From Mumia sp. zg.B17 (GTDB lineage: Bacteria; Actinomycetota; Actinomycetes; Propionibacteriales; Nocardioidaceae), in the NCBI RefSeq assembly GCF_019550915.1, contig NZ_JAHWCI010000008.1, positions 186,001 to 250,000 of the forward strand: a DNA stretch of 64,000 nucleotides, read 5' to 3'. Each line of letters starts with the position of its first letter. Position 1 is the stretch's first letter. The position numbers were made by a program, and so were the translations under genes. Below the pieces are notes generated by a model. It worked only from the letters and a program-made list of their open reading frames with translations, had not been told where the DNA came from and did not search any database. Below are positions 8,807 through 30,236 of the stretch, one piece after another.

Positions 8807-9232
8807 TCAGGATCCGGCCCGCGCGTCGGCGTTCGCCCGGTCGTTCGCCCGCTGGATCGCTGTGACGAGCTCGTCCTTGGTCATCTGGGAGCGACCGGAC
8901 ACGTCGAGGCGGCGCGCCAGGTCGTACAGGTGCTTCTTGCTGGCGTTGGCGTCGACACCCCCGGCGGTGGGACGGTTCGTGCCGCGCCCGCCGCGTGCCT
9001 GGGCGTCCGACGGCCCTCGGTCGTCCTTCGGCTCCCAGTGGTCGCCGACCTTCTCGAAGCTGTGCTTCAGCGCTGCGTACCCGACCTGGTGCGCCCGTCG
9101 GCCCTCTCCGTACTCCTCCGCGGCGGAGTCGTGCGCCTTGGCGAACGTCCGCTGCGCCTTGGCGCTCGATCGGCGGATCGGGGCGGGGAGCTCCTCCTTG
9201 CGGGGCTGTCCGTCCTTGCGTGTCTTCGGCAT
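8807..9232 (-). CDS. ChaB-domain protein with C-terminal Rho-N/SAP-like domain
   Basis: 141 residues. Residues 1-70 match ChaB: MPKTRKDGQPRKEELP, then a basic helical region AKAQRTFAKAHDSA and HQVGYAALKHSFEKVGDHW. After a Gly/Arg linker, residues 103-135 (SKKHLYDLARRLDVSGRSQMTKDEL) form a short Rho-N or SAP-like nucleic-acid-binding motif. ChaB proteins are small and poorly understood; the nucleic-acid-binding tail suggests a chromosome or RNA role. The start ATG has GAGGAGGAG upstream. It follows topoisomerase IB by 24 bp, consistent with cotranscription. Similar C-terminal motifs occur in the coiled-coil protein at 21583. Confidence 0.83.
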   Translation of the reverse strand: MPKTRKDGQPRKEELPAPIRRSSAKAQRTFAKAHDSAAEEYGEGRRAHQVGYAALKHSFEKVGDHWEPKDDRGPSDAQARGGRGTNRPTAGGVDANASKKHLYDLARRLDVSGRSQMTKDELVTAIQRANDRANADARAGS

Positions 9233-9256
9233 GGTGCGCTCCTCCTCGTTCGTCGG

Positions 9257-10270: not shown

Positions 10271-10281
10271 GCGATGGACGG

Positions 10282-11097
10282 CTACGCCGCCAGCGTGCCG
10301 TCGCCGAGCTGCTCGCGGAGCTGGGCGATGATGCGACTGAGGATCCGGGAGACCTGCATCTGAGTGACGCCGAGCCGCCCCGCGATCTGCTCCTGGGTCC
10401 ACTGGTGGAAGTAGCGCAACGCCAGCGTCTCGCGATCACGGTCGCTCAGCCTGCGCACCAACGGCGCGAGCGAGGCCTTCTCCTCCGCCCGCGCGAACGC
10501 GTCGTCGGTCTCGCCGAGGACGTCGGCGAGCGACCCCACGCCGTTGATGCCGGGCGAGTCCAGCGAGGAGGGGTGGTAGCAGCCGTCGGCAGCCATCGCC
10601 TCGTTGACCTCCTCGACCGGCAGCGCGAGGTGCTGTGCCACAGCCTCTGGGGTCGGGGTCTCGCCGAGCGTCTGGACCAGCTCTTCGACGCAGGCCACGA
10701 CTTGGGCGCGGGTCTCCTGGACGCGCCGTACCGGACGCACCATCCAGCAGCTGTCTCGGAACCAGCGGCGCACTTCGCCGCGGATCGTCGGGACGGCGTA
10801 GGTGAGGAAGTCGTGTCCACGCGCGGGGTCGAACCCGCGGGCGGCCTTGGCCAGGCCGACGTAGGCGACCTGCTCGAGATCGTCGAGGTCGACACCGCGG
10901 TTGCGGTACTGGGAGGCGACCGCACGGGCCACGCCCATGTTGACCTCGACCAGACGCGCCTGGAGCAGGTCGCGGTGGGCCTCGTTGCAGTCGGCAAGGG
11001 CTTCGCACAGCTCGGTGGTCACGGTCCGGCGCTCTTCGCGGCTCAGATCGCGAGGAAGAGCGTGCGGGCGGTCGAGGGTCGTTGCGCTAACAGACAT
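10282..11097 (-). CDS. SigB/SigF-type alternative RNA polymerase sigma factor
   Basis: 271 residues. Region 2 has LDDLEQVAYVGLAKAARGFDPARGHDFLTYAVPTIRGEVRR-type sequence (residues about 70-112), region 3 has TPTPEAVAQHLALP, and region 4 ends with a helix-turn-helix WTQEQIAGRLGVTQMQVSRIL. This is the general-stress SigB/SigF/SigG class of actinobacteria, normally held by an RsbW-like anti-sigma factor; none is encoded next to it. It heads the operon with topoisomerase IB and ChaB. The 125 bp upstream hold no clear SigB consensus that I can identify, so autoregulation is unproven. Confidence 0.92.
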   Translation of the reverse strand: MSVSATTLDRPHALPRDLSREERRTVTTELCEALADCNEAHRDLLQARLVEVNMGVARAVASQYRNRGVDLDDLEQVAYVGLAKAARGFDPARGHDFLTYAVPTIRGEVRRWFRDSCWMVRPVRRVQETRAQVVACVEELVQTLGETPTPEAVAQHLALPVEEVNEAMAADGCYHPSSLDSPGINGVGSLADVLGETDDAFARAEEKASLAPLVRRLSDRDRETLALRYFHQWTQEQIAGRLGVTQMQVSRILSRIIAQLREQLGDGTLAA

Positions 11098-11222
11098 GCC
11101 ACGCTCCGTTCACAAGTGCGAGAACGTGGCGCGCTGTTTGACCACTGAATAGGGCTGCCTGTCCTTTCTAACAGTCTTCTCGACTGCTGTCGACCTGAGC
11201 AGGCTGCGTAGATCCCCTGATG

Positions 11223-11981
11223 TCAGGGACGCCAGGGTCCGGCGGTCGCCCGCGCCTGACCGGCTGCGTCCCGCATGCTCCCCGCCCATACGGCGCCGTG
11301 CCCGGGGAAGATCGTGCCGGCATCGACGCTCGCGATCGCGTCGAGCGAGTCGACCGTCGCGTCGCGGTCGTGGGAGAACGGGCGGACGATCAGCTGTGGC
11401 CCCCGGAGCCGCGAGACGGGGTGACCTGTGATCAGCGCGTCACCACTCACCAGGACGCCCGAGCCGGGGATCAGGTACGAGGTGTGGCCGTCGGTGTGTC
11501 CGAGCGTCGGTACGGCCACCGGAGAGCCGGGCAGGTCGAGCCGGGATGCGTCGTAGGCGCCCACCTGGTCGATGCCGCCGCGGTCGGTGCCGCCGAGCCG
11601 GGTGATGTCGAGCAGCCACCCGAGGGCGCCCCGACGCCACAGCACCAGCGGGAGCCGCGCCGGTGACAGCTGCTGGAGGTAGTCGCGGCGCGCGTGCGGG
11701 ACCTCGACGGGCCCGGTCCACGTGTCGATCGAGTGCCGGGAGGCGATACGCGCCGCGCCACCGAGGTGGTCGACGTGCGCGTGGGTGAGCAGGATCCCGC
11801 GGATGTCGCGCACCTGGTGCCCGATATCGCGGATGGAGCGCTCCACGTCGACGGTGTTCCCGGGATAGCCGCCGTCGATGAGCGTGAGGTCGTGCCCGTC
11901 CTCGACGAGCACCCAGTTCACGTCGCGCGTCGAGACGAGGTACGCGTCGCCGACGCGGGTGATCGTGTAGGGCGTCGTCAT
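11223..11981 (-). CDS. MBL-fold metallo-hydrolase
   Basis: 252 residues. The metal motif HAHVDHLGG (H-x-H-x-D-H) lies near residue 70, with further ligands in GHTDGHTSY (near 170), SGDAL and FPGHG. The family includes glyoxalase II-like hydrolases, lactonases and other enzymes, so the substrate is open. ATG 11981 has GAGGAG seven bases upstream, which is better than the GTG two codons earlier. It follows the membrane-protein gene by 22 bp and may share a transcript with it. Confidence 0.87.
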   Translation of the reverse strand: MTTPYTITRVGDAYLVSTRDVNWVLVEDGHDLTLIDGGYPGNTVDVERSIRDIGHQVRDIRGILLTHAHVDHLGGAARIASRHSIDTWTGPVEVPHARRDYLQQLSPARLPLVLWRRGALGWLLDITRLGGTDRGGIDQVGAYDASRLDLPGSPVAVPTLGHTDGHTSYLIPGSGVLVSGDALITGHPVSRLRGPQLIVRPFSHDRDATVDSLDAIASVDAGTIFPGHGAVWAGSMRDAAGQARATAGPWRP

Positions 11982-12003
11982 CGGCACTCTCCTCGCTCGT
12001 CGG

Positions 12004-12558
12004 TCACCGCCGTTCCCGGACCTGCCCGAGGCCCGGGGGGCGTAGGGCCCGCGCGCGGATCATCTCGAACCGAGACATGCCCCAGGCGACAGCATCACGC
12101 AACCACGACGCCGCCGCCGGGTCGCGCACCCCGATCCGCATCGAGCGCGCCGCACGCGTGGCCGACCAGAAGCACAGCGGGATCGGGCCGAAGGCGACGG
12201 CCAGGACGACGAGGATCAGTCCGAGCACGGCGCCGGGATCAAGGTCACCCACGAGCGCCACGGGGGAGAACCACAACGCCGCCGCGAACAGCCCGGAGGA
12301 CACGAGCGCGATCTCCGGTCGCGTCCACCGGTCCTGCACCCGCACGACCAGTGCGGTGACGGCGACGACGGCCGCCGCTCCGGCGAGCAGGGAGACGGGC
12401 TGGAACGCCACCGGGACCAGCAGGAGCAAAAAGGCCGGTCCCGCGACGTAGAGCGAGGCGATGAGCACGCCGAGCGCCCATGGCGGCCCGATGACTGCGG
12501 TGGCGAAGGTGAGCGCCTCCAGCGGGGTCACAGGGTCGTTCTTTCGTGCAACCCTCAC
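12004..12558 (-). CDS. Hypothetical integral membrane protein
   Basis: 184 residues with about four hydrophobic segments (near 15-38, 38-70, 80-105 and 108-132) and a basic C-terminal tail. No family recognised. GTG 12558 has GGAGG four bases upstream, so I prefer it to inner starts. It is followed closely by the metallo-hydrolase gene. The 162 bp upstream towards the MarR gene show no clear promoter that I could defend. Confidence 0.72.
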   Translation of the reverse strand: MRVARKNDPVTPLEALTFATAVIGPPWALGVLIASLYVAGPAFLLLLVPVAFQPVSLLAGAAAVVAVTALVVRVQDRWTRPEIALVSSGLFAAALWFSPVALVGDLDPGAVLGLILVVLAVAFGPIPLCFWSATRAARSMRIGVRDPAAASWLRDAVAWGMSRFEMIRARALRPPGLGQVRERR

Positions 12559-12720
12559 GTCGCCTCCGTCACCCCTACCTCGACCTCTCGTCGAGCCCCC
12601 GAACGGTGCGGCACGACGGCCGACCCGCGGCGAACCTAGTGCGTCACGGCATCAAGCGTCAACCTGCACTCGAGGGTGCTGGACAGCCCGGTCACGCGGG
12701 CTGTGGAGCGGGCCGGTCGC

Positions 12721-13254
12721 TCAGCCGCTGACTGACCTCTCCGGCGCCTTCTCCGGGAAGTCACCGGCGGCCGAACGCAGCCGCCGCAGCAGGGCGAACG
12801 CGTCGTCCTGCTCGCGTGCGGTGAGACCGTCGACGGCGAAGTCGATCGCTGTCAAGGCGGCCGTCGCTTCGATGACGAGCTCGCGACCGGCCGGCGTGAG
12901 GGAGGCCAGCGTCCGCCTCCGGTCGCTGGGGTCGGTCTGACGCAGGACGAGCCCCTGGGCCTCGAGCCGATCGATCGCGTTCGTCACCGAGGTCGGGTGC
13001 ACCATCAGCCGCTCGCCGATCTTGCTCAGCGGCAGCGTGCCCGCCTGACTGAACGTCAGCAGCACCAGCACCTCGTAGCGCGCGAACGTGATGGCGTACG
13101 GCTTGAGTGCCGCGTCCAGCTCGGCGAGCAGCAGCTGCTGCACCCGCATCACCGAGGTCGCGAGCCGCATGGCGGTGGCGTCACCGAAGTGGCTCTCCCA
13201 GAGCTCGCCGGCGCGCTCGACGGGGTCGAACGGCAGTCGGGGTCGCTCTGGCAT
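12721..13254 (-). CDS. MarR-family transcriptional regulator
   Basis: 177 residues with a MarR winged helix: KIGERLMVHPTSVTNAIDRLEAQGLV recognition region, then TDPSDRRRTLASLTPAG wing, between dimerising N- and C-terminal helices. It is divergent from icmF with 56 bp between starts, and a near-perfect 18-bp inverted repeat lies in that gap, so it most likely represses icmF and itself with an acyl-CoA or similar ligand. ATG 13254 is 7 bases from a TAGGGT -10 box, so the mRNA may be leaderless; earlier in-frame starts would run into the operator. Confidence 0.88.
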   Translation of the reverse strand: MPERPRLPFDPVERAGELWESHFGDATAMRLATSVMRVQQLLLAELDAALKPYAITFARYEVLVLLTFSQAGTLPLSKIGERLMVHPTSVTNAIDRLEAQGLVLRQTDPSDRRRTLASLTPAGRELVIEATAALTAIDFAVDGLTAREQDDAFALLRRLRSAAGDFPEKAPERSVSG

Positions 13255-13261
13255 GGACCTC

Positions 13262-13303
13262 ACCCTATCGAGACTCGACATTACTTGGAAGTCCAACTAT
13301 TTT
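13262..13303. promoter_or_regulatory. Divergent icmF/marR promoters with MarR-type operator
   Basis: For icmF, TCGACA (13275-13280), a 17-bp spacer and TATTTT (13298-13303) form a good sigma-70-like promoter; the -10 ends 7 bases before the icmF ATG at 13311. For marR, TAGGGT (complement of 13262-13267) ends 7 bases before ATG 13254. An inverted repeat TTGGAAGTCCAA (13285-13296), extended with one mismatch pair to 13282-13299, fills the icmF spacer and the marR -35 region. One bound dimer could silence both. All of this is read from sequence; binding is inferred. Confidence 0.7.
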
Positions 13304-13310
13304 ACGTCCT

Positions 13311-16300
13311 ATGGAAACTGCGGATGCCCTGCGGGTACGGATCGTCACCGCCTCGAGCCTCTTCGACGGCCACGACGCCTCGATCAACATCATGCGCCGC
13401 ATCCTGCAGTCGCAGGGGTGCGAGGTGATCCACCTCGGTCACAACCGTTCGGTCGTCGAGGTCGTGGACGCCGCGATCGAGGAGGACGCGCACGGAGTCG
13501 CGGTCTCCTCCTACCAGGGCGGCCACGTGGAGTACTTCGAGTACCTCGTGCAGCTCCTCGCCGAGCGGGGCGCCGGGCACGTCAAGGTCTTCGGCGGCGG
13601 AGGCGGCGTCATCGTCCCCTCCGAGATCGCCCGCCTGCGTGAGAGCGGCGTCCTGATCTTCTCTCCCGAGGACGGGCAGCGCCTCGGCCTCCCCGGGATG
13701 ATCGCCGAGGTGGTCGAGGCCTGCCGCGCCGACCTGTGGGACCAGCACCGTCCCGACCCCGAGGCCGTGCTCGCGGGTGACCGGGTGTCGCTCGCGCGCG
13801 CTGTCACCGGTGCCGAGCAGGGCCGGCTCGACGGTCCGCTCGCCCGCGCCGTCCGCGCCGCGTCCGAGGCGTCGAGGACGCCTGTGCTGGGCATCACCGG
13901 CACCGGCGGCTCGGGCAAGTCCTCGCTCACCGACGAGCTGGTCCGACGCCTGCGCATCGACCAGCAGGACAAGCTCCGCATCGCCGTGCTCGCGGTCGAC
14001 CCGACCCGTCGTCGGGGCGGAGGAGCGCTGCTCGGTGACCGGATTCGGATGAACGCCCTCGACGGCGTCCACACGTTCTTCCGCTCGCTCGCGACGCGCG
14101 GGGCCCACGAGCTCCCCGACACGCTGAACGACGTCATCGCGGTCGTGAAGGCAGCGGGATACGACCTCGTGGTGCTCGAGACTCCAGGCATCGGCCAGGG
14201 CGACGCCGCGGTCGTGCCGTTCGTCGACACCTCCTTGTACGTCATGACGCCGGAGTTCGGCGCCGCGTCGCAGCTGGAGAAGATCGACATGCTCGACCTC
14301 GCCGACGTCGTGGCGATCAACAAGTACGAGCGCCGCGGCGCGGCCGACGCCCTGCGCGACGTCGGGCGGCAGATGGTGCGCAACCGCGAGGCGTTCGGCA
14401 GCCGACCCGAGGACATGCCTGTGTTCGGGACGTCCGCGGCGACCTTCAACGACGACGGCGTGACCGCGCTGTTCCAAGAGCTCGTGCGCCTCCTGGGCGA
14501 GCAAGGGCTCTCGCTCGAGGAGGGCGCGCTCCCCCGCGTCGACGTGCGCCACTCGACCAGGTTCGCCGCGATCGTCCCCCCGAACCGCTCTCGCTACCTG
14601 TCCGAGATCGCCGAGACCGTCCGCGACTACCACGCCGCCACCGAGCGCATCGCCGACACGGCCCGCCGCGCGCAGGCGCTCGAGTCGGCGGCACAGGACC
14701 TGGCAGCGGCGGGGCTCGGCACGGACGACGCCCGCTCGCTCGCGGAGACGACCGCGGCGACACTGCCCGACGAGGTGCGAGCCCGGATACGTGACTGGCC
14801 GACGGTGGTGGCGTCGTACCAGGGCGACGAGCAGGTCGTCACCGTGCGCGCCCGCGAGCTCCGCACGCGACTGGCCCGTGAGTCCTTGTCCGGCACGCGG
14901 GTGCCGAGGGTGGCACTGCCCCGCACGACCGACCACGGCGACCTCGTGCGCTACTGGCGCAGCGAGAACCTGCCCGGCCACTTCCCCTACACCGCGGGCG
15001 TCTTCTCGTTCAAGCGCGACGGCGAGGACCCGGCACGCATGTTCGCCGGAGAGGGCGATCCGTTCCGTACCAACCGCCGGTTCAAGCTCCTGTCGTCCGA
15101 CGGCGAGGCGACCCGGCTCTCGACCGCGTTCGACTCGGTCACGCTGTACGGACGCGATCCCGGCGAACGGCCCGACGTCTACGGCAAGGTCGGGACCTCG
15201 GGGGTGTCGGTCGCGACGCTGGACGACATGAAGGTGCTTTACGACGGGTTCGACCTCGTCTCCCCCTCCACGTCGGTGTCGATGACGATCAACGGCCCGG
15301 CCCCGACGGTGCTCGCGTTCTTCCTCAACACCGTCATCGACCAGCAGCGCGACCGCTTCCGCGACGAGAACGGACGCGAACCGTCGCCGGAGGAGGACGC
15401 CGACCTCGTCGCGTACGCCGTCGGCAACGTCCGCGGCACGGTCCAGGCGGACATCCTCAAGGAGGACCAGGGCCAGAACACCTGCCTGTTCTCGACGGAG
15501 TTCAGCCTGCGGATGATGGCCGACATCCAGGAGTGGTTCGTCCAGCGCCAGGTCCGCAACTTCTACTCCGTGTCGATCTCCGGCTACCACATCGCCGAGG
15601 CTGGGGCGAACCCGCTGAGCCAGCTGGCGTTCACGCTCGCGAACGGCTTCACCTACGTCGAGGCCTACCTCGCCCGCGGGATGGACATCGACGACTTCGC
15701 ACCCAACCTGTCGTTCTTCTTCTCCAACGGGATGGACCCGGAGTACTCCGTGATCGGCCGCGTGGCGCGCCGCATCTGGGCGGTCGCCATGCGCGAGCGG
15801 TACGGCGCCAACGAGCGTTCGCAGAAGCTGAAGTACCACGTGCAGACCTCGGGACGGTCCCTGCACGCGCAGGAGATGAGCTTCAACGACATCCGGACGA
15901 CGCTCCAGGCGTTGATCGCGATCTACGACAACGCCAACAGCCTCCACACCAACGCCTACGACGAGGCGGTGACGACACCGACCGAGGAGTCCGTGCGCCG
16001 CGCGCTGGCGATCCAGATGATCATCAACAAGGAGTGGGGTCTCGCGATGAACGAGAACCCGCAGCAGGGGTCGTACGTGATCGAGGAGCTGACCGACCTC
16101 GTCGAGCAGGCCGTGCTCGAGGAGTTCGACCGGATCACCGAGCGCGGCGGCGTGCTCGGTGCGATGGAGACCGGATACCAGCGTGGCCGCATCCAGGACG
16201 AGTCCATGCTGTACGAGCACCGCAAGCACGACGGCTCACTGCCGATCGTCGGTGTGAACACCTTCCGCAACCCGCGGGCCGGGGGGGAGCACGGACCGAT

Positions 16301-16532
16301 CGAGCTCGCCCGCGCGACCGAGGACGAGAAGCGGTCGCAGCTCGCCCGCGTCCACGCGTTCCAGGAGACACACCGCGACGAGGCACAGGCAGCGTTGGCG
16401 CGGCTGAAGGACGCCGCGGCGTCGGACGAGAACGCGTTCGACGTGTTGATGGACGCGGCACGGGTGTGTTCGCTCCAGCAGGTCACGGAGGCGTTCTTCG
16501 AGGTCGGAGGCCAATACCGGCGCAACGTCTGA
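13311..16532 (+). CDS. icmF: Fused isobutyryl-CoA mutase with G-protein chaperone domain
   Basis: 1073 residues, the length of IcmF. Order: an N-terminal adenosylcobalamin-binding domain with DGHDAS at residues 19-24 (the B12 histidine is His21); a MeaB-like GTPase domain with Walker A GTGGSGKSS near residues 197-205; and a C-terminal TIM-barrel mutase from about residue 540 with GHFPYTAGVFSFKRDGEDP. It interconverts isobutyryl-CoA and n-butyryl-CoA, and the GTPase domain loads and protects the cofactor. Substrate choice (isobutyryl-, isovaleryl- or pivalyl-CoA) is not settled by sequence alone. No ribosome site precedes ATG 13311; the start lies at the expected transcription start. Confidence 0.93.
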   Translation: METADALRVRIVTASSLFDGHDASINIMRRILQSQGCEVIHLGHNRSVVEVVDAAIEEDAHGVAVSSYQGGHVEYFEYLVQLLAERGAGHVKVFGGGGGVIVPSEIARLRESGVLIFSPEDGQRLGLPGMIAEVVEACRADLWDQHRPDPEAVLAGDRVSLARAVTGAEQGRLDGPLARAVRAASEASRTPVLGITGTGGSGKSSLTDELVRRLRIDQQDKLRIAVLAVDPTRRRGGGALLGDRIRMNALDGVHTFFRSLATRGAHELPDTLNDVIAVVKAAGYDLVVLETPGIGQGDAAVVPFVDTSLYVMTPEFGAASQLEKIDMLDLADVVAINKYERRGAADALRDVGRQMVRNREAFGSRPEDMPVFGTSAATFNDDGVTALFQELVRLLGEQGLSLEEGALPRVDVRHSTRFAAIVPPNRSRYLSEIAETVRDYHAATERIADTARRAQALESAAQDLAAAGLGTDDARSLAETTAATLPDEVRARIRDWPTVVASYQGDEQVVTVRARELRTRLARESLSGTRVPRVALPRTTDHGDLVRYWRSENLPGHFPYTAGVFSFKRDGEDPARMFAGEGDPFRTNRRFKLLSSDGEATRLSTAFDSVTLYGRDPGERPDVYGKVGTSGVSVATLDDMKVLYDGFDLVSPSTSVSMTINGPAPTVLAFFLNTVIDQQRDRFRDENGREPSPEEDADLVAYAVGNVRGTVQADILKEDQGQNTCLFSTEFSLRMMADIQEWFVQRQVRNFYSVSISGYHIAEAGANPLSQLAFTLANGFTYVEAYLARGMDIDDFAPNLSFFFSNGMDPEYSVIGRVARRIWAVAMRERYGANERSQKLKYHVQTSGRSLHAQEMSFNDIRTTLQALIAIYDNANSLHTNAYDEAVTTPTEESVRRALAIQMIINKEWGLAMNENPQQGSYVIEELTDLVEQAVLEEFDRITERGGVLGAMETGYQRGRIQDESMLYEHRKHDGSLPIVGVNTFRNPRAGGEHGPIELARATEDEKRSQLARVHAFQETHRDEAQAALARLKDAAASDENAFDVLMDAARVCSLQQVTEAFFEVGGQYRRNV

Positions 16533-16567
16533 GCCTGCGCTCGCAACCGGTGAACGGGGGCAGAACT

Positions 16568-16573
16568 GGGTAC
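16568..16573 (+). promoter_or_regulatory. GGGTAC: possible stress-sigma -10 element
   Basis: In the 95 bp after icmF, GGGTAC lies 55 bases before the repeat-protein start. GGGTA(C/T) is the -10 of SigB/SigF-class promoters. The matching -35 (GNNT or GTTT) is not convincing here, so this is only a suggestion. Confidence 0.25.
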
Positions 16574-16627
16574 TGTGCCGGACACGTACGGCCGCATCCC
16601 CGAGCGGCCCGGCTTGAGGAGTTCGAC

Positions 16628-17377
16628 ATGGATGACATTCCCTGGTGGGTCTGGGTCATCATCGCCGTCGTCGTGGTGGCGTTGATCGCACTGGCGGCCC
16701 TGGCCGCACAGCGCAAGAGCCGCGAGCGTGCAGCCGCACAGCGGCGCGAGGAGGCCAATGCCCTCCGCGCGCAGGCGCAGGACACCCAGCTGGAAGCCAG
16801 CCGTCGCGATGCCGAGGCGGCGCGAGCACGCGCCGATGCCGAGGAGGCACGGGTCGCGGCCGAGCAGCGCGAGCGTGAGGCGCGTGAGCACCAGGAGCAC
16901 GCGCAGCGCACCCGCTCCGAGGTCGACGAGAAGCTCGCGAGGGCCGACGAGCTCGATCCCGACGGCGGTCGCGACGACCGCCCGGCCGGCGCCTACGCCG
17001 CGGGCGCGAGCGGGGACTACGTCGCTGACTCGAGCGGGGACTACACCACCGACTCGCAGGGCGACTACACCACCGGCACGGACACCGGCACGCACGCCGA
17101 CGGCACGACCGACGCCGGCGCCTACACCACCGGCACGACTGAGCCCGGCACGCACGCCGACGGCACCGCCGACACCGGCACGCACGCCGACAGCACGACC
17201 GACGCCGGTGCCTACACCACCGGCACGACCGAGCCCGGCACGCACGCCGACGGCACGACCGACCCTCGCACCGATGCCGCGACCGACGAGACGGTCGAGG
17301 TGACCGAGACCTACGAGGTCCCGGCCGACGAGACCGAGCCGCGTCAGCGCGACGCCGACGGCCGGCACCAGGCCTGA
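16628..17377 (+). CDS. Membrane-anchored coiled-coil protein with Thr/Gly/Asp repeats
   Basis: 249 residues. Residues 1-28 are one transmembrane segment (WWVWVIIAVVVVALIALAAL), preceded by MDDIP. Residues 30-110 are a highly charged Arg/Glu/Ala coiled coil. Residues 120-215 are low complexity: SGDY-type units, then two copies of a 30-residue repeat built on GTHADGTTDAGAYTTGTTEP. The C-terminus is acidic. The ribosome site GAGGAG and ATG 16628 agree. Because the anchor is N-terminal, the repeat part could face either side; a cytosolic coiled coil or a surface stalk are both possible. No family recognised. Confidence 0.75.
   Translation: MDDIPWWVWVIIAVVVVALIALAALAAQRKSRERAAAQRREEANALRAQAQDTQLEASRRDAEAARARADAEEARVAAEQREREAREHQEHAQRTRSEVDEKLARADELDPDGGRDDRPAGAYAAGASGDYVADSSGDYTTDSQGDYTTGTDTGTHADGTTDAGAYTTGTTEPGTHADGTADTGTHADSTTDAGAYTTGTTEPGTHADGTTDPRTDAATDETVEVTETYEVPADETEPRQRDADGRHQA
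17087..17266 (+). repeat. Two 90-bp in-frame tandem repeats
   Basis: Two copies of a 90-bp unit (17087-17176 and 17177-17266). Each is a 60-bp block plus a shortened 30-bp block that itself repeats the start of the 60-bp block (GTHAD...). Copies differ at only a few bases. The periodicity is a multiple of three throughout, so copy number can change without breaking the frame. Confidence 0.85.
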
Positions 17378-18168
17378 CCACGGACGCCCGGACCAGCGAC
17401 GACCTCGGCACCCCGGTTGCGCACCCGCGCACCGCGTGCCGTGTCGTCTCACTGGTTCCGTCGCTCACCGAGGCGATCGCCGCGACCCGCGGCGACGCCT
17501 TGGTGGGCGCGACCGACTGGTGCACCCACCCCGCCGACCTCGACGTCGTCCGGGTTCGTGGCACCAAGAACCCTGACCTTCGGGCGGTCACCGACCTCTC
17601 TCCCGACCTGGTGGTCGCCAACCAGGAGGAGAACCGCGAGCTCGACGTCCGACGTCTGCGCGAGGCGGGCGTCGCCGTCTGGGTGACCAGGATCCAGACC
17701 GTCGACGAAGCGGTCGCGTCGATGCGGCGACTGTTCGCCGAGGCCCTGGGCTGGGGCGTCCCCGGCTGGCTCGACACTGTCGCAGCCGCGTGGGCGGCTC
17801 CCTCGCGGCCCACCACCGGCGCCCCCGCGCTCCGCGCGGCAGTCGCCGTCTGGCGCGACCCCTGGATGGTCGTCGGACGCGACACCTTCACCGGTGACCT
17901 GGTCTCCCGGCTCGGTTGGCAGCACGCGTACGCGCAAGCCGACGGCCGATACCCGCACGTCCCGCTCGAAGACCTCGACCGTGCCGACCTCGACGTCGTG
18001 CTGCTGCCCGACGAGCCGTACCCCTTCGGTCCGTCCGACGGTCCCGAGGCGTTCACCCGTGTGCCGACCGTGCTGGTGCCCGGTCGGCTCCTCACCTGGT
18101 ACGGGCCGTCGCTGCTCGAGGCGCGTACGGCGCTGGCCGATCTCGTGACCCGCTGCGCGACCGCCTGA
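17374..18168 (+). CDS. BtuF-like helical-backbone metal receptor protein, likely CTG start
   Basis: Residues after CRVVSLVPSLTEAI (codons from 17437) match the helical-backbone periplasmic-binding fold of BtuF/FhuD-like proteins: WCTHP, GTKNPD, LSPDLVVANQEENR, then VAVWRDPWMVVG, and a C-terminal LVPGRLLTWYGPS. No signal peptide or lipobox is seen, so it is probably a cytosolic cobalamin- or metal-binding homologue. No ATG, GTG or TTG occurs in frame before TTG 17500, which would cut off the first conserved strand. A CTG at 17374-17376 overlaps the preceding TGA (CTGA), the geometry of coupled starts, so I use it. An undetected sequencing error is the alternative. Confidence 0.72.
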   Translation: MTTDARTSDDLGTPVAHPRTACRVVSLVPSLTEAIAATRGDALVGATDWCTHPADLDVVRVRGTKNPDLRAVTDLSPDLVVANQEENRELDVRRLREAGVAVWVTRIQTVDEAVASMRRLFAEALGWGVPGWLDTVAAAWAAPSRPTTGAPALRAAVAVWRDPWMVVGRDTFTGDLVSRLGWQHAYAQADGRYPHVPLEDLDRADLDVVLLPDEPYPFGPSDGPEAFTRVPTVLVPGRLLTWYGPSLLEARTALADLVTRCATA

Positions 18169-18226
18169 CCCGCACCGCCGGAGCGCTCGACGCGCCGAGA
18201 GACGGGTCGCGGTTTACGTTCGCGCC

Positions 18227-19561
18227 ATGGACGATTCTTCGCTGCGGACGACGATCGCCGCGCTGATGCCCGCCATCCGCGACGAGCTGGAGTCGATGGT
18301 CGCCATCCCCTCGTGCGCGTTCCCGGGCTTCCCGCCCGAGCCTGTGCACTCCATGGCGCAGTCCGTCGTCGACGCGTTCGGCCGGTACGGCGTGCCAGCG
18401 ATGATCACCGAGATCCCCGGCGGTTACCCGGCGGTGACCGCGGAGATCCCGGCGCCCGAGGGACGGCCCACGGTCGTGCTCTACGCCCACTACGACGTCC
18501 AGCCGGCTCCCCCCGAGCAGGGCTGGGAGACCGACCCGTTCGCGCCGACGTGGCGCGACGGCCGGTTGTACGGCCGCGGCGCCGCCGACGACAAGTCGGG
18601 CATCGCGATCCACCTCGCGACTCTCGCCGCGTTCGACGGGAGACCGCCGGTCGGTGTCCGTCTCATCGTCGAGGGTGAGGAGGAGACCGTCAGCCACCTC
18701 GAGGCCTGGGTCACCGCCAATCCGGACAGGGTCGAGGCCGACGCCATGATCGTCGCCGACATGGGCAACCTCACCGTCGGCGAGCCGGTGCTGAGCGTGG
18801 GGCTGCGCGGTCATGTGAAGGCTGTGGTCGAGGTGCGGACGCTCGAGCAGCCGGTGCACTCGGGTCTCTTCGGCGGTGCAGCCCCCGACGCCTTGATGGC
18901 GCTGATCACCATGCTCGCGACGCTGGTCGACGAGGAGGGGAACTGTCTCGTGGAAGGCATCGCGTCCGGAGACTGGGAAGGCGCCGACTATCCCGAGGAG
19001 ATGCTGCGCCGCAACGCCGGCGTCCTTGACGGCGTCGGGCTGGTAGGGACGGGCACGATCGCCTCGCGTCTGTGGGCCCGGCCGTCAGTCAGTGTGCTCG
19101 GCCTGGACGCGGTGCCGGTCGACCGGGCGTCGAACGTCCTGCAGCCGAGCGCGCGGGCGGTGGTGGGGATGCGCATCCCGCCCGGGCAGGACCCCCGCGA
19201 CGCGATCGACGCCCTGATGGCGCACCTGCGCTCCGTCGCACCCTGGAACGCGCGGGTCGACGTGCACGCGGACAAGGTGAGCCCTGCGTTCTCGCAGGGG
19301 ACGGACGGGCGGGCTTTCGGCTTGATGCGCGAGGCGCTCGCCACCGCGTACGGCGCGGACGTCCAGACCGTCGGGTCGGGCGGGTCGATCCCGCTCCTCG
19401 AGACGCTGCACGAGGCCGTTCCGACGGCGGACTTCGTCCTGATCGGAGCCCAGGACGCCGAGCACGCCCACATCCATGGCCCCGACGAGTCGGTCGACCC
19501 TTCGGAGATCGAGCGCATGGCGCTCGCGCAGGCCCTCCTCCTCGAAGCACTCGCCCACTAG
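18227..19561 (+). CDS. M20-family metallopeptidase (dipeptidase)
   Basis: 444 residues. The metal and catalytic motifs are present: HYDVQP (near residue 88), GRGAADDKSG with the bridging aspartate (near 120), the EGEEE pair (near 148), and a late GPDESV histidine-ligand region (HIHGPDES). A dimerisation (lid) domain occupies the middle. It hydrolyses a dipeptide or N-acyl amino acid. TACGTT (18215-18220) ends six bases before ATG 18227 and there is no ribosome site, so the mRNA may be leaderless. The dicarboxylate carrier gene follows by 48 bp. Confidence 0.9.
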   Translation: MDDSSLRTTIAALMPAIRDELESMVAIPSCAFPGFPPEPVHSMAQSVVDAFGRYGVPAMITEIPGGYPAVTAEIPAPEGRPTVVLYAHYDVQPAPPEQGWETDPFAPTWRDGRLYGRGAADDKSGIAIHLATLAAFDGRPPVGVRLIVEGEEETVSHLEAWVTANPDRVEADAMIVADMGNLTVGEPVLSVGLRGHVKAVVEVRTLEQPVHSGLFGGAAPDALMALITMLATLVDEEGNCLVEGIASGDWEGADYPEEMLRRNAGVLDGVGLVGTGTIASRLWARPSVSVLGLDAVPVDRASNVLQPSARAVVGMRIPPGQDPRDAIDALMAHLRSVAPWNARVDVHADKVSPAFSQGTDGRAFGLMREALATAYGADVQTVGSGGSIPLLETLHEAVPTADFVLIGAQDAEHAHIHGPDESVDPSEIERMALAQALLLEALAH

Positions 19562-24381: not shown

Positions 24382-24806
24382 TCACGCCACCACCACGCCG
24401 GCGCGGCGCAGCCGCTCCCGGACCACGCCACCGGGCACTCCGAGCACGGTGCGGCCGTGTCGTCCGTGCGTGGTGGTCGCCGCGAGGACCGAGTTCAGCA
24501 GCGCTTCCTCGACCGCGTCCATCGTCGACCCCAAGATCGGGTCGAGGGCCTCGTCGGCAGGGGGCTGGCCCGTGCCGACCGAGAACGCCAGGGCGTAGTC
24601 GCCACTCCCCTGGGCGTAGTCCGCGCCGACCCGGGCCATCGCGAAGACGGCACGCCGGGCGACCCGCCCGAGCTGGCGCGCGTCGAGCGGGGCGTCGGTC
24701 GCGACCACGATCATGCAGGAGTTGCCGACGGTCTGGGCGGGAGGAGCGCCGACCAGGTCCGCGGACGGCATCCGCACGCCCGCGATGGTGAGCACGCCGT
24801 CCATGT
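24382..24806 (-). pseudogene. C-terminal half of interrupted P1-family (DmpA-like) aminopeptidase
   Basis: The frame encodes VLTIAGVRMPSAD, then GNSCMIVVATDAPLDARQL with the serine at the autoprocessing/nucleophile position of DmpA-type N-terminal-nucleophile peptidases, and GSGDYALAFS and later segments to the C-terminus. It has no valid start: the frame runs into foreign sequence at 24807. Joined to the 29634-30236 half through the 11-bp repeat it gives a normal-length protein of 338 codons in one frame. As it stands, it is a disabled fragment. Confidence 0.85.
24796..24806 (+). repeat. Left 11-bp direct repeat of the insertion (GCCGTCCATGT)
   Basis: Identical to 29634-29644 in the same orientation. 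It lies at the exact break in the P1 peptidase gene. Followed by GGACGGC (24813-24819), which is the inverted complement of GCCGTCC (24796-24802). Confidence 0.85.
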
Positions 24807-24827
24807 CCCAGAGGACGGCCGCGGGCA

Positions 24828-25073
24828 GCCTCTGACCAGCTTCCTCGTGCTGACCTGCAGGTTCACGAGAAGACGCGGTGTTCAGAATGCCCTCCAACAA
24901 GCTCCATGCGACTAACGATGCGACTATGCACCCTAGGTGCGCCCCCTGCCCCATTGACGGGCATCCCGGTGAACGGCTGACATCCGGCGGGGTTGAGCCG
25001 CTTCACGTGGTCGACCGCTCACACCTGACATGCATGAGCAACCACACGATCGCCGCCCCGATCAGATGGGGAG
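24828..25073. other. Noncoding left arm of the insertion
   Basis: Apart from the repeats listed, I see no gene, RNA or clear hairpin here. Open frames are short and lack family features. Confidence 0.5.
24906..24927 (+). repeat. Left-arm ATGCGACTA tandem pair
   Basis: ATGCGACTA occurs twice with a 12-base period. Similar pairs occur at 29362-29380 and 29491-29512 in the right arm in the same orientation. They look like protein-binding arm sites. Confidence 0.65.
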
Positions 25074-25089
25074 CCTGACCTGCGCTAAC
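25074..25089 (+). repeat. Left copy of 16-bp direct repeat CCTGACCTGCGCTAAC
   Basis: Identical to 29575-29590, same orientation, one in each arm of the insertion. A shorter related piece, CTGACCTGC, also occurs near 24849. Confidence 0.75.
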
Positions 25090-25134
25090 CATCCGTGCGC
25101 CGTAAAGCGGCACAGGCAGCGGCCAAGCCCAACC

Positions 25135-25809
25135 TCACCCGGAGCGGCGCCCCGGCTGGACCAGCCCGTGGTCGAAGGCGAAGACCACGGCGGCAGCGCG
25201 GTCGCGCAGGCCGAGCTTGGCGAAGATGTGCCCGATGTGGGTCTTGATCGTGCCCTCGCCGAGGAACAGGTTGGCGGCGATCTCGGTGTTGTTGAGGCCG
25301 GCGCCGATCAGGGCGAGCACCTCTCGCTCCCGTGGCGTGAGCGTCTCGACAGCCGCGCCGGACACCGGTGGGGCCTGCGCTCCGCGGTAGGCCGTGAGCA
25401 CCCGGCCGGTGACGGCCGGGTCCAGCCACGAGTCGCCGGCGGCGACCGCCCGGACAGCGCGCTGGAGGTCCTCGGCCGGGACAGACTTGAGCAGGAAGCC
25501 GGCCGCCCCGGCGCGGAGCGCCCCGGCGAGCACCTCCTCGTCCTCGAACGTCGTCAGCACCAGCACCGGTGGCGCATCGGGTACGTCGGCCAGCAACCGG
25601 GTCGCGGCGACGCCGTCGACCCGGGGCATCCGCACGTCCATCACCACCACGTCGGGGCGCAGGGACGCCACCGCGTCGACGATGCCCTCGCCGCTCGCCA
25701 GCTCACCGACGATCTCGAACCCGAACCGGGAGCGCAGGATCCCGCGCAGCCCTGTGCGGACGAGCTCCTGGTCATCGACCAGGAGCACCCGGACCACCTC
25801 CTGGGTCAT
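25135..25809 (-). CDS. NarL/LuxR-family response regulator
   Basis: 224 residues. Receiver domain residues 6-122 with the acidic pocket VDDQ and phospho-acceptor Asp58 (VVVMDVRMP), lysine in FLLKSV. C-terminal LuxR helix-turn-helix: LTPREREVLALIGAGLNNTEIAANL and GTIKTHIGHIFAKLGLRDR. ATG 25809 overlaps the kinase stop (ATGA), so kinase and regulator are made together. It probably controls the ABC exporter genes upstream in the same unit. It lies inside the insertion that splits the P1 peptidase gene. Confidence 0.93.
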   Translation of the reverse strand: MTQEVVRVLLVDDQELVRTGLRGILRSRFGFEIVGELASGEGIVDAVASLRPDVVVMDVRMPRVDGVAATRLLADVPDAPPVLVLTTFEDEEVLAGALRAGAAGFLLKSVPAEDLQRAVRAVAAGDSWLDPAVTGRVLTAYRGAQAPPVSGAAVETLTPREREVLALIGAGLNNTEIAANLFLGEGTIKTHIGHIFAKLGLRDRAAAVVFAFDHGLVQPGRRSG

Positions 25810-26885
25810 GACGGCAGCACCGCCTCGACCAGCCAGCCCTGCGGGACCGGACCGGCGGTGAGTCGGCCACCGACGCTTTCGGCGCGCTCGCGCATGCCGT
25901 CGAGGCCGGAACCGGGGGTGGCCGCGGGGTCGGGCGTCCCGCCGTTGCGCACCGTCACCGTGACGTCTGCCTTGCCGGCGATCACGCAGACAGCGACTGG
26001 CTCGCCGGCGGCGTGCCGAGCGGCGTTGGTCAGTGCCTCCTGGACGATCCGGTAGGCAGCCAGTCCCCGGGTGGATCCCAAAGAGGAAAGGTCTCCCTCG
26101 ACCTTGAGCTCGACGGCAGCGCCGGCTCGGCGGAACGAGTCCACGAGGTCGGCGATGTCACGGGCGTCGGGCAGCGGCGCCATCCGGACGGGGTCGTCGG
26201 TGCGCATCAGGCCGACGGTGGCGCGGACCTCCTCCAGGCTCTGTCGGGCCAACCTCTCCGCCTCGACCAGGGAGGCGCGCGCTTCCTCGGGCTCGTCGTC
26301 GAGTGCGAGCCGGGCGCTGCCGATGTGCAGCAGCGAGACGGTCAGGGCGTGGCCGATCACGTCGTGCACCTCATCGGCGATCCGGCTGCGCTCCTCGGCC
26401 CTGCTGCGCTCGGCCAGCTCGGCCCGGGTGCGGTTGAGCTCGACCACGGTCAGTCGCAGTCGCCGGGCGAACACGCAGGCGATGGTCGTGAACGCCGTAC
26501 CGATGATCCAGGCACCCCATCCGGGTTCCGAGGGGTGGATCGCCCACTCCCCGACGGGTCCTGCGAGGAGTACGACGAGCGTGGTCAGGGCCACCGGCAA
26601 CGCAGACGACAGCGCGGCCCAGGCGGCGATGACGCACAGCCCCATCCAGGACAGGTTGGAGGACTGCTCGTGACCGAGCACCACCAGCCCCGCGATCGGG
26701 ATGACCAACCCCGCCGCGAGCCGCCAGCCCGACGGCGCCCACTTCGCCAGCGCCAGCGCCGCAGCGACGATGCCCGCGGCCGACCACAGCGCCACCGGGG
26801 TCGACTGGCGCGTCATCAGCACTCCCAGGAGCGCGAAGAACGCGAGCGCGGCAGGTGCCGCGGCTCGCGTTCCCCACTCCGTCAT
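25806..26885 (-). CDS. Sensor histidine kinase (HisKA_3 type)
   Basis: 359 residues. Residues 1-145 contain about five to six transmembrane segments and no large extracellular domain, so it likely senses within the membrane, as the regulators of drug exporters do. The phosphorylated His174 lies in EVHDVIGHAL; the HATPase domain follows with EALTNAARHA and GSGLDGMRERAE. ATG 26885 begins before the first membrane segment; the ribosome site is weak. It lies 17 bp after the permease and is coupled to the response regulator. Confidence 0.92.
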   Translation of the reverse strand: MTEWGTRAAAPAALAFFALLGVLMTRQSTPVALWSAAGIVAAALALAKWAPSGWRLAAGLVIPIAGLVVLGHEQSSNLSWMGLCVIAAWAALSSALPVALTTLVVLLAGPVGEWAIHPSEPGWGAWIIGTAFTTIACVFARRLRLTVVELNRTRAELAERSRAEERSRIADEVHDVIGHALTVSLLHIGSARLALDDEPEEARASLVEAERLARQSLEEVRATVGLMRTDDPVRMAPLPDARDIADLVDSFRRAGAAVELKVEGDLSSLGSTRGLAAYRIVQEALTNAARHAAGEPVAVCVIAGKADVTVTVRNGGTPDPAATPGSGLDGMRERAESVGGRLTAGPVPQGWLVEAVLPS

Positions 26886-26902
26886 AGGAGCGACCCTAGA
26901 CG

Positions 26903-27712
26903 TCACAGGGCGCTGCGCCGTGCCGCCAGGGCCATGGCGCCGACCGCGATCACGGTGACGGCCACCAGGGCGACCGTGGCGTCGCCGATCCCGAGCCACG
27001 GTTCCCGGATCGCCTGGTTGGCCAGCGACAGCGGCAGCCGCTCGGAGATCTCCCGCAGCGCATCCGACATCACCGCCGGCGGTGGGCCGCCGACACCGAG
27101 CAGGAAGGAGGGGAAGAACAGCAGCAGCCCGACGGCCTGTGCCGCCCGCGCCGAGGGCAGCATCGTCCCGAGCAGCACCCCGATGCTGGCGAACGCCACG
27201 GAGGCAACGACCACGCCGGCCACGACCCGCACCGGGTCCTCGACGCTCGGGATGCCGTAGACCGGTGCGGCGACGGCCAGCAGGAGCGCACCCGAGATCG
27301 CGATCGCGGTGAGGCCGACCATGAGCTGGGCCAACGCGAACGACCACCGTGGGAACCCCGACGCCGCGAACCGGCGCAGCACTCCTCGCTCCCGGTAGGT
27401 GGCGATGTGCACCGGCAGCATGATCAGTCCAGTCGCCCCGATCACCACGGTGAAGTAGGAAGCGACGTACCAGTGCGACGGGTTCACCGGGAAGGCGTCG
27501 TCGGGCTGGGTCCCGAACGAGCCGCCGATGATCAGCATGGAGACGATCGGGAACACCAGCACGAAGGTCAGGGCGAACGGCTCGCGGCTGAGCAGCCGGA
27601 GCTCGGTGGTGACGAGTCGGCGGGTGGCCGAGCGGTGCTTGGGCGCGGGCGCGGCGGTGGAGCGCGGATCGGCGCCGGCAGTGTCCGGCTGGATGGGGAC
27701 GAACGTGCTCAT
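26903..27712 (-). CDS. ABC-2 type transporter permease
   Basis: 269 residues. A cytosolic N-terminus of about 45 residues precedes six hydrophobic segments, with TYRERGVLRRFAASG in the cytoplasmic loop that couples to the ATPase, as in DrrB-like exporters. It would export a drug, lipid or peptide; the substrate is unknown. ATG 27712 overlaps the ATPase stop (ATGA), giving a two-gene exporter whose partner is the next entry. Confidence 0.9.
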   Translation of the reverse strand: MSTFVPIQPDTAGADPRSTAAPAPKHRSATRRLVTTELRLLSREPFALTFVLVFPIVSMLIIGGSFGTQPDDAFPVNPSHWYVASYFTVVIGATGLIMLPVHIATYRERGVLRRFAASGFPRWSFALAQLMVGLTAIAISGALLLAVAAPVYGIPSVEDPVRVVAGVVVASVAFASIGVLLGTMLPSARAAQAVGLLLFFPSFLLGVGGPPPAVMSDALREISERLPLSLANQAIREPWLGIGDATVALVAVTVIAVGAMALAARRSAL

Positions 27713-28689
27713 GATGCGACCTTCCTGGTCTCGGGGAGATCGGTGGACTGGTCGAGCAGGGTCAGCAGCGCCGACTCGAGATCGGGGATGTCGACCCGGA
27801 GATCGACCGGCACGGGGTGTCCGCTCGCGACGAGCCAGGCCCCCACGTGGGCGATGGCCTCGCGCGCGCCCTCGATCGCGACCTGGTCGCGCTCCTGGCT
27901 CACCCGGTGTACGCCGGGAAGTCGATCGAGCTCGCCGCGGATCGCCGAACCCCCGGCACCCGGAAGCCCGAAGCGGACCGTGACTCCAGGGGCGTGGCGG
28001 GCGACCAGCTCGGCGGGCGTGCCCTGGTCGAGCACCCGCCCCTGTCGCATGGCGACGACACGCTCGCACAGTGCCTCCGCCTCGTCGAGCTCGTGCGTCA
28101 CGAGCATGACGGTGGTGCCCTCGTCACGCAGCTGCGCAACGGCGGACCACACCTCACGCCGTGCGGCGGGGTCCAGGCCCTGGGTGAGCTCGTCGAGGAT
28201 GACCAGGCGCGGCCGGTTGAGCAGCGCGAGCACGAGGAACAACCGCTGCCGCTCTCCCCCGCTCAGCCCCGCGAACGGGGAGCGACGCAGCCGCCCGAGG
28301 CCGAACTGCTCGAGCAGCCGGTCCCGGTCCTGGGCGTGCGGGCCGGCGAACAGGTCCACCGCCTCGGTGACCCGCAGCCGGTCGGGCAACCCAGAGCTCT
28401 GCAGCTGGCTGCCCACCTGCAGGCGCAGGCGATCGGCCTGCTTGACCGGGTCCAGGCCGAGGACCCGGATCACCCCGGAGTCGGGCGTCCGCAGGCCCTG
28501 CAGGCACTCGACGGTGGTGGTCTTGCCGGCACCGTTGGCGCCGATGAGACCGACGATCTCACCAGCCCCCACGTGCAGGTCGAGATTGTCGACGACGACT
28601 CGTCCGCCGTACGACTTGGTCAGTCCGCGCACGGTGACGACCGGCCCAGAGATGTGCTCGGTGGCGTGGCGCATGGGTGTTGGTTGCAT
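27709..28689 (-). CDS. ABC transporter ATP-binding protein
   Basis: 326 residues. Walker A GANGAGKTT, Q-loop region, signature LSGGERQRLF, Walker B LVILDE followed by LTQGLDP, and the switch histidine in VTHELDEAE; a C-terminal 100-residue extension is typical of DrrA/CcmA-like exporters. ATG 28689 has a GGGGG site just upstream; an inner ATG at 28674 is possible. First gene of the insertion's four-gene unit, which is probably transcribed leftwards from the noncoding arm at 28690-28900. Confidence 0.92.
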   Translation of the reverse strand: MQPTPMRHATEHISGPVVTVRGLTKSYGGRVVVDNLDLHVGAGEIVGLIGANGAGKTTTVECLQGLRTPDSGVIRVLGLDPVKQADRLRLQVGSQLQSSGLPDRLRVTEAVDLFAGPHAQDRDRLLEQFGLGRLRRSPFAGLSGGERQRLFLVLALLNRPRLVILDELTQGLDPAARREVWSAVAQLRDEGTTVMLVTHELDEAEALCERVVAMRQGRVLDQGTPAELVARHAPGVTVRFGLPGAGGSAIRGELDRLPGVHRVSQERDQVAIEGAREAIAHVGAWLVASGHPVPVDLRVDIPDLESALLTLLDQSTDLPETRKVAS

Positions 28690-29361
28690 GCCCCCATTCC
28701 ATGTCGCGGGGACCCTCGGCACATCGGCCCGGAGGCAGAACCCGACCTCTGCCCCCGGGCAGAGGTCCCTGGAGACTGTAAGCAGTGCAGACGAACCCGA
28801 CCAGGTCCCTGGACCGGCCCTGCGACGGCCACGCGACGGCCACGCCATGACCGTGGTGACCTTCGGCGCAGTCAGGTAGGTGCGCCCCAGGGCGATCCGC
28901 TGGAGCACCTGGGTGTGGTCGCGCAGATCCTCGCCCTGGCCGAACAGGTCCCGCCGGCCACGGCCTCGCGGGCGCAGCTGTGGCGGCGTACGGCGAAACC
29001 GTCGTCCGCCTCCTGTAGACCAAGATGGTCGGGCAGCTAACGCAGCCACAAGGTGGGTGCCGACACGGGTGTCTAAGGCGCGATGGCGGTAGCCGTTGCG
29101 CTGTGCGGCGCGGCCCGGGTTGGGCCGTCTCCATTCCGCGCCAACGACAGCGTCGGCAGCGTTCTCCTCGATGAGGTGTCAGGCAGTCAGCGCGGGCAGG
29201 TCATCAGCTCCGATCTCGGGTTCGGTCACTACGCGGGACTTGACCGGCGTCAGCTCGGCCCGCAACCTCTTCGGGGGCGTCCGGCGTATCGAGCAGGGCG
29301 GCTCGCCCGGGCTCGGCAAGCGACGCTAGACCCGCACTGGATCACCCGACGCGGGGTCACG

Positions 29362-29380
29362 ATGCGACTATCGATGCGAC
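29362..29380 (+). repeat. Right-arm ATGCGAC pair, inner copy
   Basis: ATGCGACTATCG followed by ATGCGAC; same unit and orientation as 24906-24927. Confidence 0.6.
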
Positions 29381-29490
29381 GGTTCAGCGCTCAACGCATC
29401 AGTCAGGGATGTCGTGTGACCGGCTGGCAGGACGGGCGCCTCCACTCAGCCGACCAGCGGGAGGATGCATGACGTCGGGCCTTGAGCGCC

Positions 29491-29512
29491 ATGCGACTAT
29501 CCATGCGGCTAT
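29491..29512 (+). repeat. Right-arm ATGCGACTAT pair, outer copy
   Basis: ATGCGACTATCC followed by ATGCGGCTAT; one mismatch to the unit at 24906-24927, same orientation. Confidence 0.65.
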
Positions 29513-29574
29513 ACGCTACAGATTCGAATGCGCCCCTATGCCTCTGAACGCCCGCTGAGGACGCCGACGGCCCA

Positions 29575-29590
29575 CCTGACCTGCGCTAAC
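29575..29590 (+). repeat. Right copy of 16-bp direct repeat CCTGACCTGCGCTAAC
   Basis: Identical to 25074-25089; lies 43 bp inside the right 11-bp repeat. Confidence 0.75.
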
Positions 29591-29597
29591 GTGTAGG

Positions 29598-30236
29598 TCA
29601 ACGCACCTGGAAGTACCCCAGAGCACCCGGCGTGCCGTCCATGTTGGACTGCACGAGCGCGCCGACCGTGACGGTGCGTCCCGCGAGCTCGACCAGGCGA
29701 GACGAGGTGCCGATCCCTCCCTTGTAGCCGAGCGCCGTCGTGCCCGTCCCGGCTCCGACGCACCCCTCGACGACGCGCCCACCACTCGCCGACGCGAGGG
29801 CCTCCTCGACGTGCTCGGCGCCGACCGCGCGGGCGCGGACATCGGAGAGGTGGCCGTCGTTCGTCTCGCCGACGACAGGGTTGAGCGTGGCGACGTCCTC
29901 GTAGCCGGGACGCGCCAGGACGTGGGCGACCAGCGCGTCGGCCACCCGGAACACCGAGAGCGTGCTGGTGAGCAGCACCGGCGTCTCGAGCGCCCCGAGC
30001 TCGACCAGCTGGGTCGCCCCGACGAGCTTGCCGAACCCGTTGCCCACCGACAGCCCGGCGGGCAGCCGGCGACGCGACGGCCCGAGCGCGTCCGGCACGA
30101 TCGCGGTCACCCCCGTCCGCAGGTCCCCGCGGGCGATCGTCGCGTGCCCGACGCGCACGCCCTCGACGTCGGTGATCGCTCCGTACCGGCCCCGTGGATG
30201 GGGGCCGAGGGTGAGCGGCAGCTCGTCGACGCGCAC
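29598..30236 (-). pseudogene. N-terminal half of interrupted P1-family (DmpA-like) aminopeptidase
   Basis: Residues 1-201 match the N-terminal part of DmpA-like proteins: ITDVEGVRVGHATI, GVTAIVPDALG, GNGFGKLVGATQLVELG, TLNPVVGETNDGHLSD, GCVGAGTGTTALGYKGGIGTSSR and TVGALVQSNMDG. The next 12 codons (29598-29633) come from the insertion and end at a stop. The missing half with the serine nucleophile is at 24382-24795. The GTG start at 30236 is seven bases from a TAGCGT box, so the original mRNA may have been leaderless. The fragment should be inactive. Confidence 0.85.
29634..29644 (+). repeat. Right 11-bp direct repeat of the insertion (GCCGTCCATGT)
   Basis: Identical to 24796-24806. In the reconstructed gene this sequence continues as TGGAC, so GTCCA-TGT-TGGAC forms a small inverted repeat at the joint. 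Confidence 0.85.

Follow-up and report, generated by a model that had tools for sequence, protein, structure and literature searches.

Introduction

The dusA-associated islands, which encode DAI tyrosine integrases, are known from the 5′ end of a protein-coding gene, and the pSLS subfamily of actinobacterial integrative and conjugative elements (ICEs) is described, in the available text of PMC3218068, as residing outside tRNA genes. Cis-mobilizable elements (CIMEs) have lost the genes for their own movement. According to the available portions of the reports, ICEBs1 (PMC3715440) and Salmonella genomic island 1 (SGI1; PMC2297512) use secondary sites when the primary one is absent, and strand exchange at a mismatched core is expected to leave two different cores (PMC3715440). 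Here we analyse a 64,000-nucleotide stretch of DNA (the window) from Mumia sp. zg.B17 (contig NZ_JAHWCI010000008.1, positions 186,001 to 250,000), in which an insert of about 4.84 kb interrupts a gene for an S58 (DmpA/P1-type) peptidase. The insert is very probably a decayed, CIME-like integrative element at a secondary site, carrying a cassette of response regulator, histidine kinase and ABC transporter genes; its relatives occupy a HAD-phosphatase gene that adjoins metH. Our literature search, which mostly could not reach subscription papers, returned no description of elements at this HAD site.

Results

The window belongs to a 3.86-Mb draft genome in 18 contigs (G000), which we compared with five congeners (G001-G005) and, for family-wide searches, with 341 genomes of the host family. 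Both parts of the peptidase gene match the Peptidase_S58 profile in order (Table 1), and the C-terminal part is alignable to intact congener genes. In four of the five congeners the gene is a single open frame of 335-342 codons (77-83% identity over the N half), with the same order of neighbouring genes on both sides; the fifth, G001, has no peptidase match at E<=0.001. Alignments of the four to the window end at 24792-24798 and restart at 29643. The segment is a genuine insertion, and relatives keep the interrupted gene intact. A preliminary description of the window had proposed a discrete segment splitting one gene between 11-bp direct repeats and had called for a comparison with intact relatives; that comparison bears it out, as does the finding of this element, bounded by identical ends, in a different gene of another genus (G184).

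The repeats are exact, lie in the same orientation at the two breaks, and are the only two exact occurrences of GCCGTCCATGT in the window. Across the whole genome the pattern occurs four times, including the two flanking copies, and a reversed control pattern occurs three times; by rough estimate, an 11-bp identity would arise by chance at one fixed breakpoint pair with a probability of ~6e-7, or ~6e-6 if 11 offsets are allowed. The stretch between the repeats (24807-29633) measures 4827 bp, the 4.84 kb being the repeat-to-repeat period. When the flanks are joined with one repeat copy, 338 codons and a stop result (QSNMDG followed directly by VLTIAG), exactly the restored frame that had been predicted. 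At present the frame of the N half continues into the element up to 29598, as TPGALGYFQVR and a stop. A tRNA gene was ruled out as the target, since ARAGORN shows no tRNA in the window.

Two features had gone unremarked: at its left end the insert carries the 5′ end of a HAD-phosphatase gene, and the repeat is an att core. Read on the minus strand, the sequence up to the left repeat translates as LPAAVLWDMDG, with which a HAD phosphatase begins; GGAGGG precedes a putative CTG start codon (24885-24883), placed from sequence only. The copy in G184 is 99.3% identical (4849 bp in the window vs 4860 bp, with 35 mismatches and 11 gap columns) and lies inside a HAD-phosphatase gene (PF13419, 3.1e-30) adjoining a Pfam-confirmed metH. 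Both its ends fall at the same 11 bp, the left core standing at the same end, and its flanks beyond the 11 bp are unrelated to those in the window. There the HAD open reading frame (ORF) opens with sequence that belongs to the element, and the displaced 5′ stub is found past the opposite end. A third copy, in G147, lies between metH and HAD without window positions 24965-25080 and everything right of 29056. At the HAD site, the element supplies the 5′ end of the HAD gene; in the window, this same end is fused to the C half of the peptidase. Of the 341 genomes, 193 show some match to the 345-bp left end, with many of the matches listed covering only the first ~30 bp of it. A source of the left end within G000 was sought and rejected: DMDG-core patterns gave no second copy and, besides the insert, only an LWDIDG site.

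A tyrosine integrase of this family, carried with an xis-like gene by larger relatives of the insert at the HAD site, is present in six of the 341 genomes. Together with xis-like ORFs, it adjoins the same HAD-side end in G128, G228 and G311, and the G128 relative carries a TrwC relaxase as well. Intact xis-like ORFs (L076 and L077) match HTH_17 at 3.4e-7 and 6.1e-7, and the remnant in the window aligns with the start of the xis-like ORF in L070, L076, L077 and L084. The ends are held in common too. Pairs of arm-like repeats, 108-109 and 120-121 bp away from the core, occur in G184, G147, G128, G311, G010, G276, G302 and G258; in G228 and G022 just the first repeat of the pair was recognised. 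The motif CTGACCTGCG..AACGT stands 60-61 bp ahead of the right core in G184, G311, G128 and two G010 elements. Further related arm-type copies occur near the right end of the insert (29356-29383 and 29485-29512).

Other arrangements were seen within the family. The integrase at G022:C1:1628766-1629979 (L091, L092) is in two pieces in different frames. At L084 (G010; 5090-18995) two elements lie in tandem within one HAD gene, the first with a truncated integrase ORF and the second, of ~1.0 kb, with two ends and a portion of xis. At L072 (G258; 4797-9305) a GH106-like ORF lies between two HAD 5′-end copies, one with arm repeats and the other with no recognisable core; this is possibly a second integrase-less member. 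Phage and plasmid origins of the integrase were considered and rejected: 994 phage records match, all at <60% identity, and 348 plasmid records, nine of them at 60-80%. The ten matches listed for each source, among which these nine plasmid records do not figure, show 26-29% identity over 81-87% of the query. Carriage of the element itself on plasmids was likewise dismissed, with five records each matching merely 1-2% of the query.

All six genomes of the host genus have DLDG in their HAD orthologs, whose cores match ACATGGACGGC at 8-9 of 11 positions (8 of 11 in G000); a perfect primary core is therefore missing there. About 90 bp upstream of these DLDG codons in G000 lies an inverse perfect core (G000:C7:17168-17178; L201, position 2198). 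Paralogous HAD genes in the congeners have a perfect ACATGGACGGC at L205 and L208 (G003 and G002) and a near-perfect one at L206, L207 and L203 (G001, G004 and G005). At the core position, nine peptidase orthologs read F[GS]G in seven cases and M[ST]G in two more distant ones (L193, L194), with MDG in none, and the aligned congener peptidase cores match ACATGGACGGC at 5-7 of 11.

Table 1 Features of the insert and of the interrupted peptidase gene, in window coordinates.
Feature	Position	Strand	Evidence
C-terminal part, split S58 (DmpA/P1-type) peptidase gene	24382..24795	-	Pfam Peptidase_S58 6.5e-28, profile 206-307 of 307
Left att core, 11-bp repeat GCCGTCCATGT, DMDG codons on minus strand	24796..24806		Exact repeat
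Replacement HAD-phosphatase 5′ end, codes LNTASSREPAGQHEEAGQRLPAAVLWDMDG	24796..24885	-	Near-identical N-terminus of HAD ORFs in G184 and G147
Putative integrase arm-type repeats ATGCGACTA-ACG-ATGCGACTA	24906..24926	+	Left end; recur in relatives
xis-like gene remnant: 10 codons MSNHTIAAPI, then RWGA and stop	25034..25063	+	Aligns with starts of xis-like ORFs
NarL/LuxR-type response regulator (cargo)	25135..25809	-	Response_reg 2e-25, GerE 6.7e-18
HisKA_3 sensor histidine kinase (cargo)	25806..26888	-	HisKA_3 2.8e-16
ABC-2 type permease (cargo)	26903..27715	-	ABC2_membrane 1.7e-20
ABC ATPase, DrrA-like (cargo)	27709..28692	-	ABC_tran 2.5e-26
Right-end conserved motif CTGACCTGCGCTAACGT, 60 bp before right core	29576..29592	+	Recurs in relatives
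Right att core, 11-bp direct repeat	29634..29644		Exact repeat; right end of G184 copy
N-terminal part, split S58 peptidase gene	29634..30236	-	Pfam Peptidase_S58 8e-63, profile 2-186 of 307

The ORFs of the insert and their Pfam matches comprise four cargo genes, and no recombinase, relaxase or transfer gene was found among them. The ATPase has drrA as its top NCBIfam model, at 186.5 bits, below the cut-off of 312.45. All four genes are kept together, at 50-82% identity, in each of the eight loci compared (L099-L104, L107 and L110, from 80 returned), and the ABC-exporter cassette is therefore of an ordinary actinobacterial type. A scan of genome contigs recovered relatives of the cargo ATPase rather than copies of the element.

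Several short stretches of the insert resemble parts of other genes. Within 29056-29226, two match both ends of a Mutator-family transposase gene at L045 (G181; Transposase_mut, 2e-132) and its counterpart at L034 (G244), as if an insertion sequence (IS) had lost its middle, and the G147 copy terminates exactly at 29056, the edge of this relic. Positions 29380-29452 share ~91% identity with the beginning of a conserved ORF in the four loci read (L035, L037, L040 and L042), an ORF with a Walker-A-like GSGKS that is conjugation-ATPase-like by eye and has no Pfam match; the stretch is a possible remnant of a transfer module. A 16-bp direct repeat, CCTGACCTGCGCTAAC, brackets the cargo at 25074-25089, behind the xis stub, and 29575-29590, near the right end, and may be a trace of the replacement of xis and int by the cargo.

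Discussion

The family to which the insert belongs has integrase-bearing members, common ends and a HAD target, and one and the same element sits at the HAD gene in G184 and at the peptidase gene in G000. We propose that the insert is a small integrative element whose family uses, as its site of recombination, an 11-bp core formed by the DMDG codons near the 5′ end of the metH-adjoining HAD-phosphatase gene, presumably by way of a tyrosine integrase, and provides the HAD gene with a new 5′ end. The window copy may have entered together with, or aided by, an integrase-bearing relative. The host HAD ortholog (DLDG) has no perfect core, which would be why the copy used ACATGGACGGC, within the peptidase gene, as its secondary site. 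If the helper was lost later, the copy is probably locked in place, and excision would need an integrase from outside. The idea, put forward in the preliminary description, that precise excision could revive the gene thus stands as far as the frame is concerned; beyond that it is weakened by the lack of a recombinase gene in the insert, by the lack of a close integrase relative in G000 at E<=1e-60, and by the joint itself, since MDG occurs in none of the nine orthologs.

Several points weigh against our proposal. Excision and integration were not observed, the helper is conjectural, and the absence of an integrase from G000 refers to a single threshold (E<=1e-60) in a draft of 18 contigs. Four HAD loci that have no arm repeats (L069, L073, L079 and L085) share the sequence CTGACCTGC, which lies 52 bp from the left core; it is therefore a feature of the HAD 5′ region and does not mark the element. 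In all five congeners the HAD gene has a paralog with DMDG and a core of 10-11 of 11, which was not seen in G000; it would be another candidate site, which is awkward. Finally, none of the nine peptidase orthologs has a perfect core, and a single exchange involving a mismatched core is expected to produce two unlike cores, whereas here both are element-type. Either the lineage drifted to the core before the insertion, or the core was converted, through accretion and loss of a partner that removed the host-type core. We lean towards prior drift and keep both.

Under prior drift, an element circle would have integrated in trans, in one step, at a peptidase site that already read ACATGGACGGC, a course to which we give an even chance. 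It accounts for the identity of both repeats and the choice of site, as the congener-type peptidase core (5-7 of 11) is no better than the HAD core (8 of 11). The genome would have held three perfect cores before the insertion (four now, two at the insertion), and the M at the first changed residue in the two distant orthologs (L193, L194) indicates that this position tolerates M, which raises prior drift and lowers the alternative. Against it stand the orthologs, all without the perfect core, and the need of an integrase-less circle for excision elsewhere and a route into the cell. Accretion in two steps we regard as the less likely course, though a tangible one. A tandem of the element and an integrase-bearing one would have arrived as a unit and integrated at a mismatched peptidase core, and the partner would later have left by recombination between the inner att site and attR, taking the host-type core along. 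Two element-type cores and the absence of int would then be explained, a tandem of family members exists in G010, and accretion with co-transfer is documented for CIMEs in the available text of PMC5704250; but no trace of a partner and no tandem containing this element was seen, and the mismatched peptidase core is again no better a match than the host's HAD core.

Transposition, by an IS-like element or a composite transposon with an 11-bp target-site duplication, is highly improbable, even though exact direct repeats, an empty site in relatives and a Mutator-family transposase relic near the right end speak for it. Target duplications differ between targets, and the G184 copy, on which we rejected this explanation, is flanked by the identical 11 bp at an unrelated gene. 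Moreover, the insert shares one end, the HAD 5′ region, with the integrase elements and has at its other end the right-end motif that they carry, the transposase is represented by the relic only, with no transposase gene among the cargo, and no end-to-end inverted repeat appears among the 25 longest of 70 pairs listed. That the halves are separate functional genes, or that the assembly is wrong, has next to no probability: both are still open frames, but they form one gene in four congeners, syntenic on both sides, and another genome contains an independent copy of the insert that has those same ends.

Returning to integration at a secondary site, we considered what it does to the interrupted gene. 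Behind the element's GGAGGG and putative CTG start, the C half of the peptidase continues a 30-residue HAD leader in frame. Compared with the four congeners, the window gene has 152-166 identical residues of 198 in its N half and 83-96 of 128-137 (63-70%) in its C half; in four of the six congener pairs the values are 151-168 of 201 and 91-106 of 128-132 (69-80%). The C half in the window is therefore somewhat more diverged, which could reflect relaxed constraint. More speculatively, a ribosome-binding site and a start codon of the element's own may allow expression of a chimera from the split gene, here a HAD leader joined to a peptidase C half that still has GNSC, the self-cleavage site of DmpA-type enzymes. 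A wider generalization is speculative and, in our estimate, rather doubtful: one HAD-specific integrase family would support integrase-less satellites, made of two att ends and one cargo unit, that are moved by integrase-bearing relatives, turn to other genes where the target codons have drifted, and may express chimeras of the genes they split. The cargo units would be the ABC/two-component cassette here, perhaps the GH106 enzyme in G258, and almost nothing in the 1.0-kb unit of G010.

The locus offers a natural, base-precise case of one element that occupies its usual gene in one genus and a stand-in gene in a second. With 99.3% identity between the copies and a usual core that is changed in all six genomes of the second genus, this history is recent and testable. 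The locus also marks the metH-adjoining HAD phosphatase as an integration site with 5′-end replacement in the host family. Gene callers would report both parts of the peptidase, and the HAD-leader chimera with them, as if they were ordinary genes.

Comparison with known systems

An ICE or an integrative and mobilizable element has its own integrase and relaxase or transfer genes, and none were found in the insert. Like the dusA-associated islands in the available text of PMC4482086, the family uses the 5′ end of a protein-coding gene, brings a replacement 5′ end, has direct-repeat att sites and diverse cargo, and infrequently uses other genes. Its target is instead the metH-adjoining HAD-phosphatase gene, in an actinobacterial family. 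The cargo, with ATPase, permease, histidine kinase and response regulator in one cluster, is similar to DrrA-type ABC-2 exporters with two-component regulators, although its ATPase scores below the curated cut-off of the drrA model. As for ICEBs1 and SGI1 at secondary sites, so far as PMC3715440 and PMC2297512 are available, a site-specific element lies elsewhere in a host without a perfect primary site; unlike those, this is a natural case, is integrase-less, and has two element-type cores. Among the HAD-site elements, the window copy has the HAD 5′-end module, the arm repeats and the right-end motif, and lies in an S58 gene where the G184 and G147 copies lie in HAD genes.

The insert also resembles the CIMEs, which in the available text of PMC5704250 have lost integration and transfer genes, keep attL and attR, and have complete relatives and tandems in the family. 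The window copy differs in its secondary site, and accretion and mobilisation were not observed for it. It otherwise shows the same state: integration and transfer genes are lost, with four cargo genes present and xis cut to 10 codons, and both att-like sites are retained, with cores, arm repeats and right-end motif spaced as in the integrase-bearing relatives.

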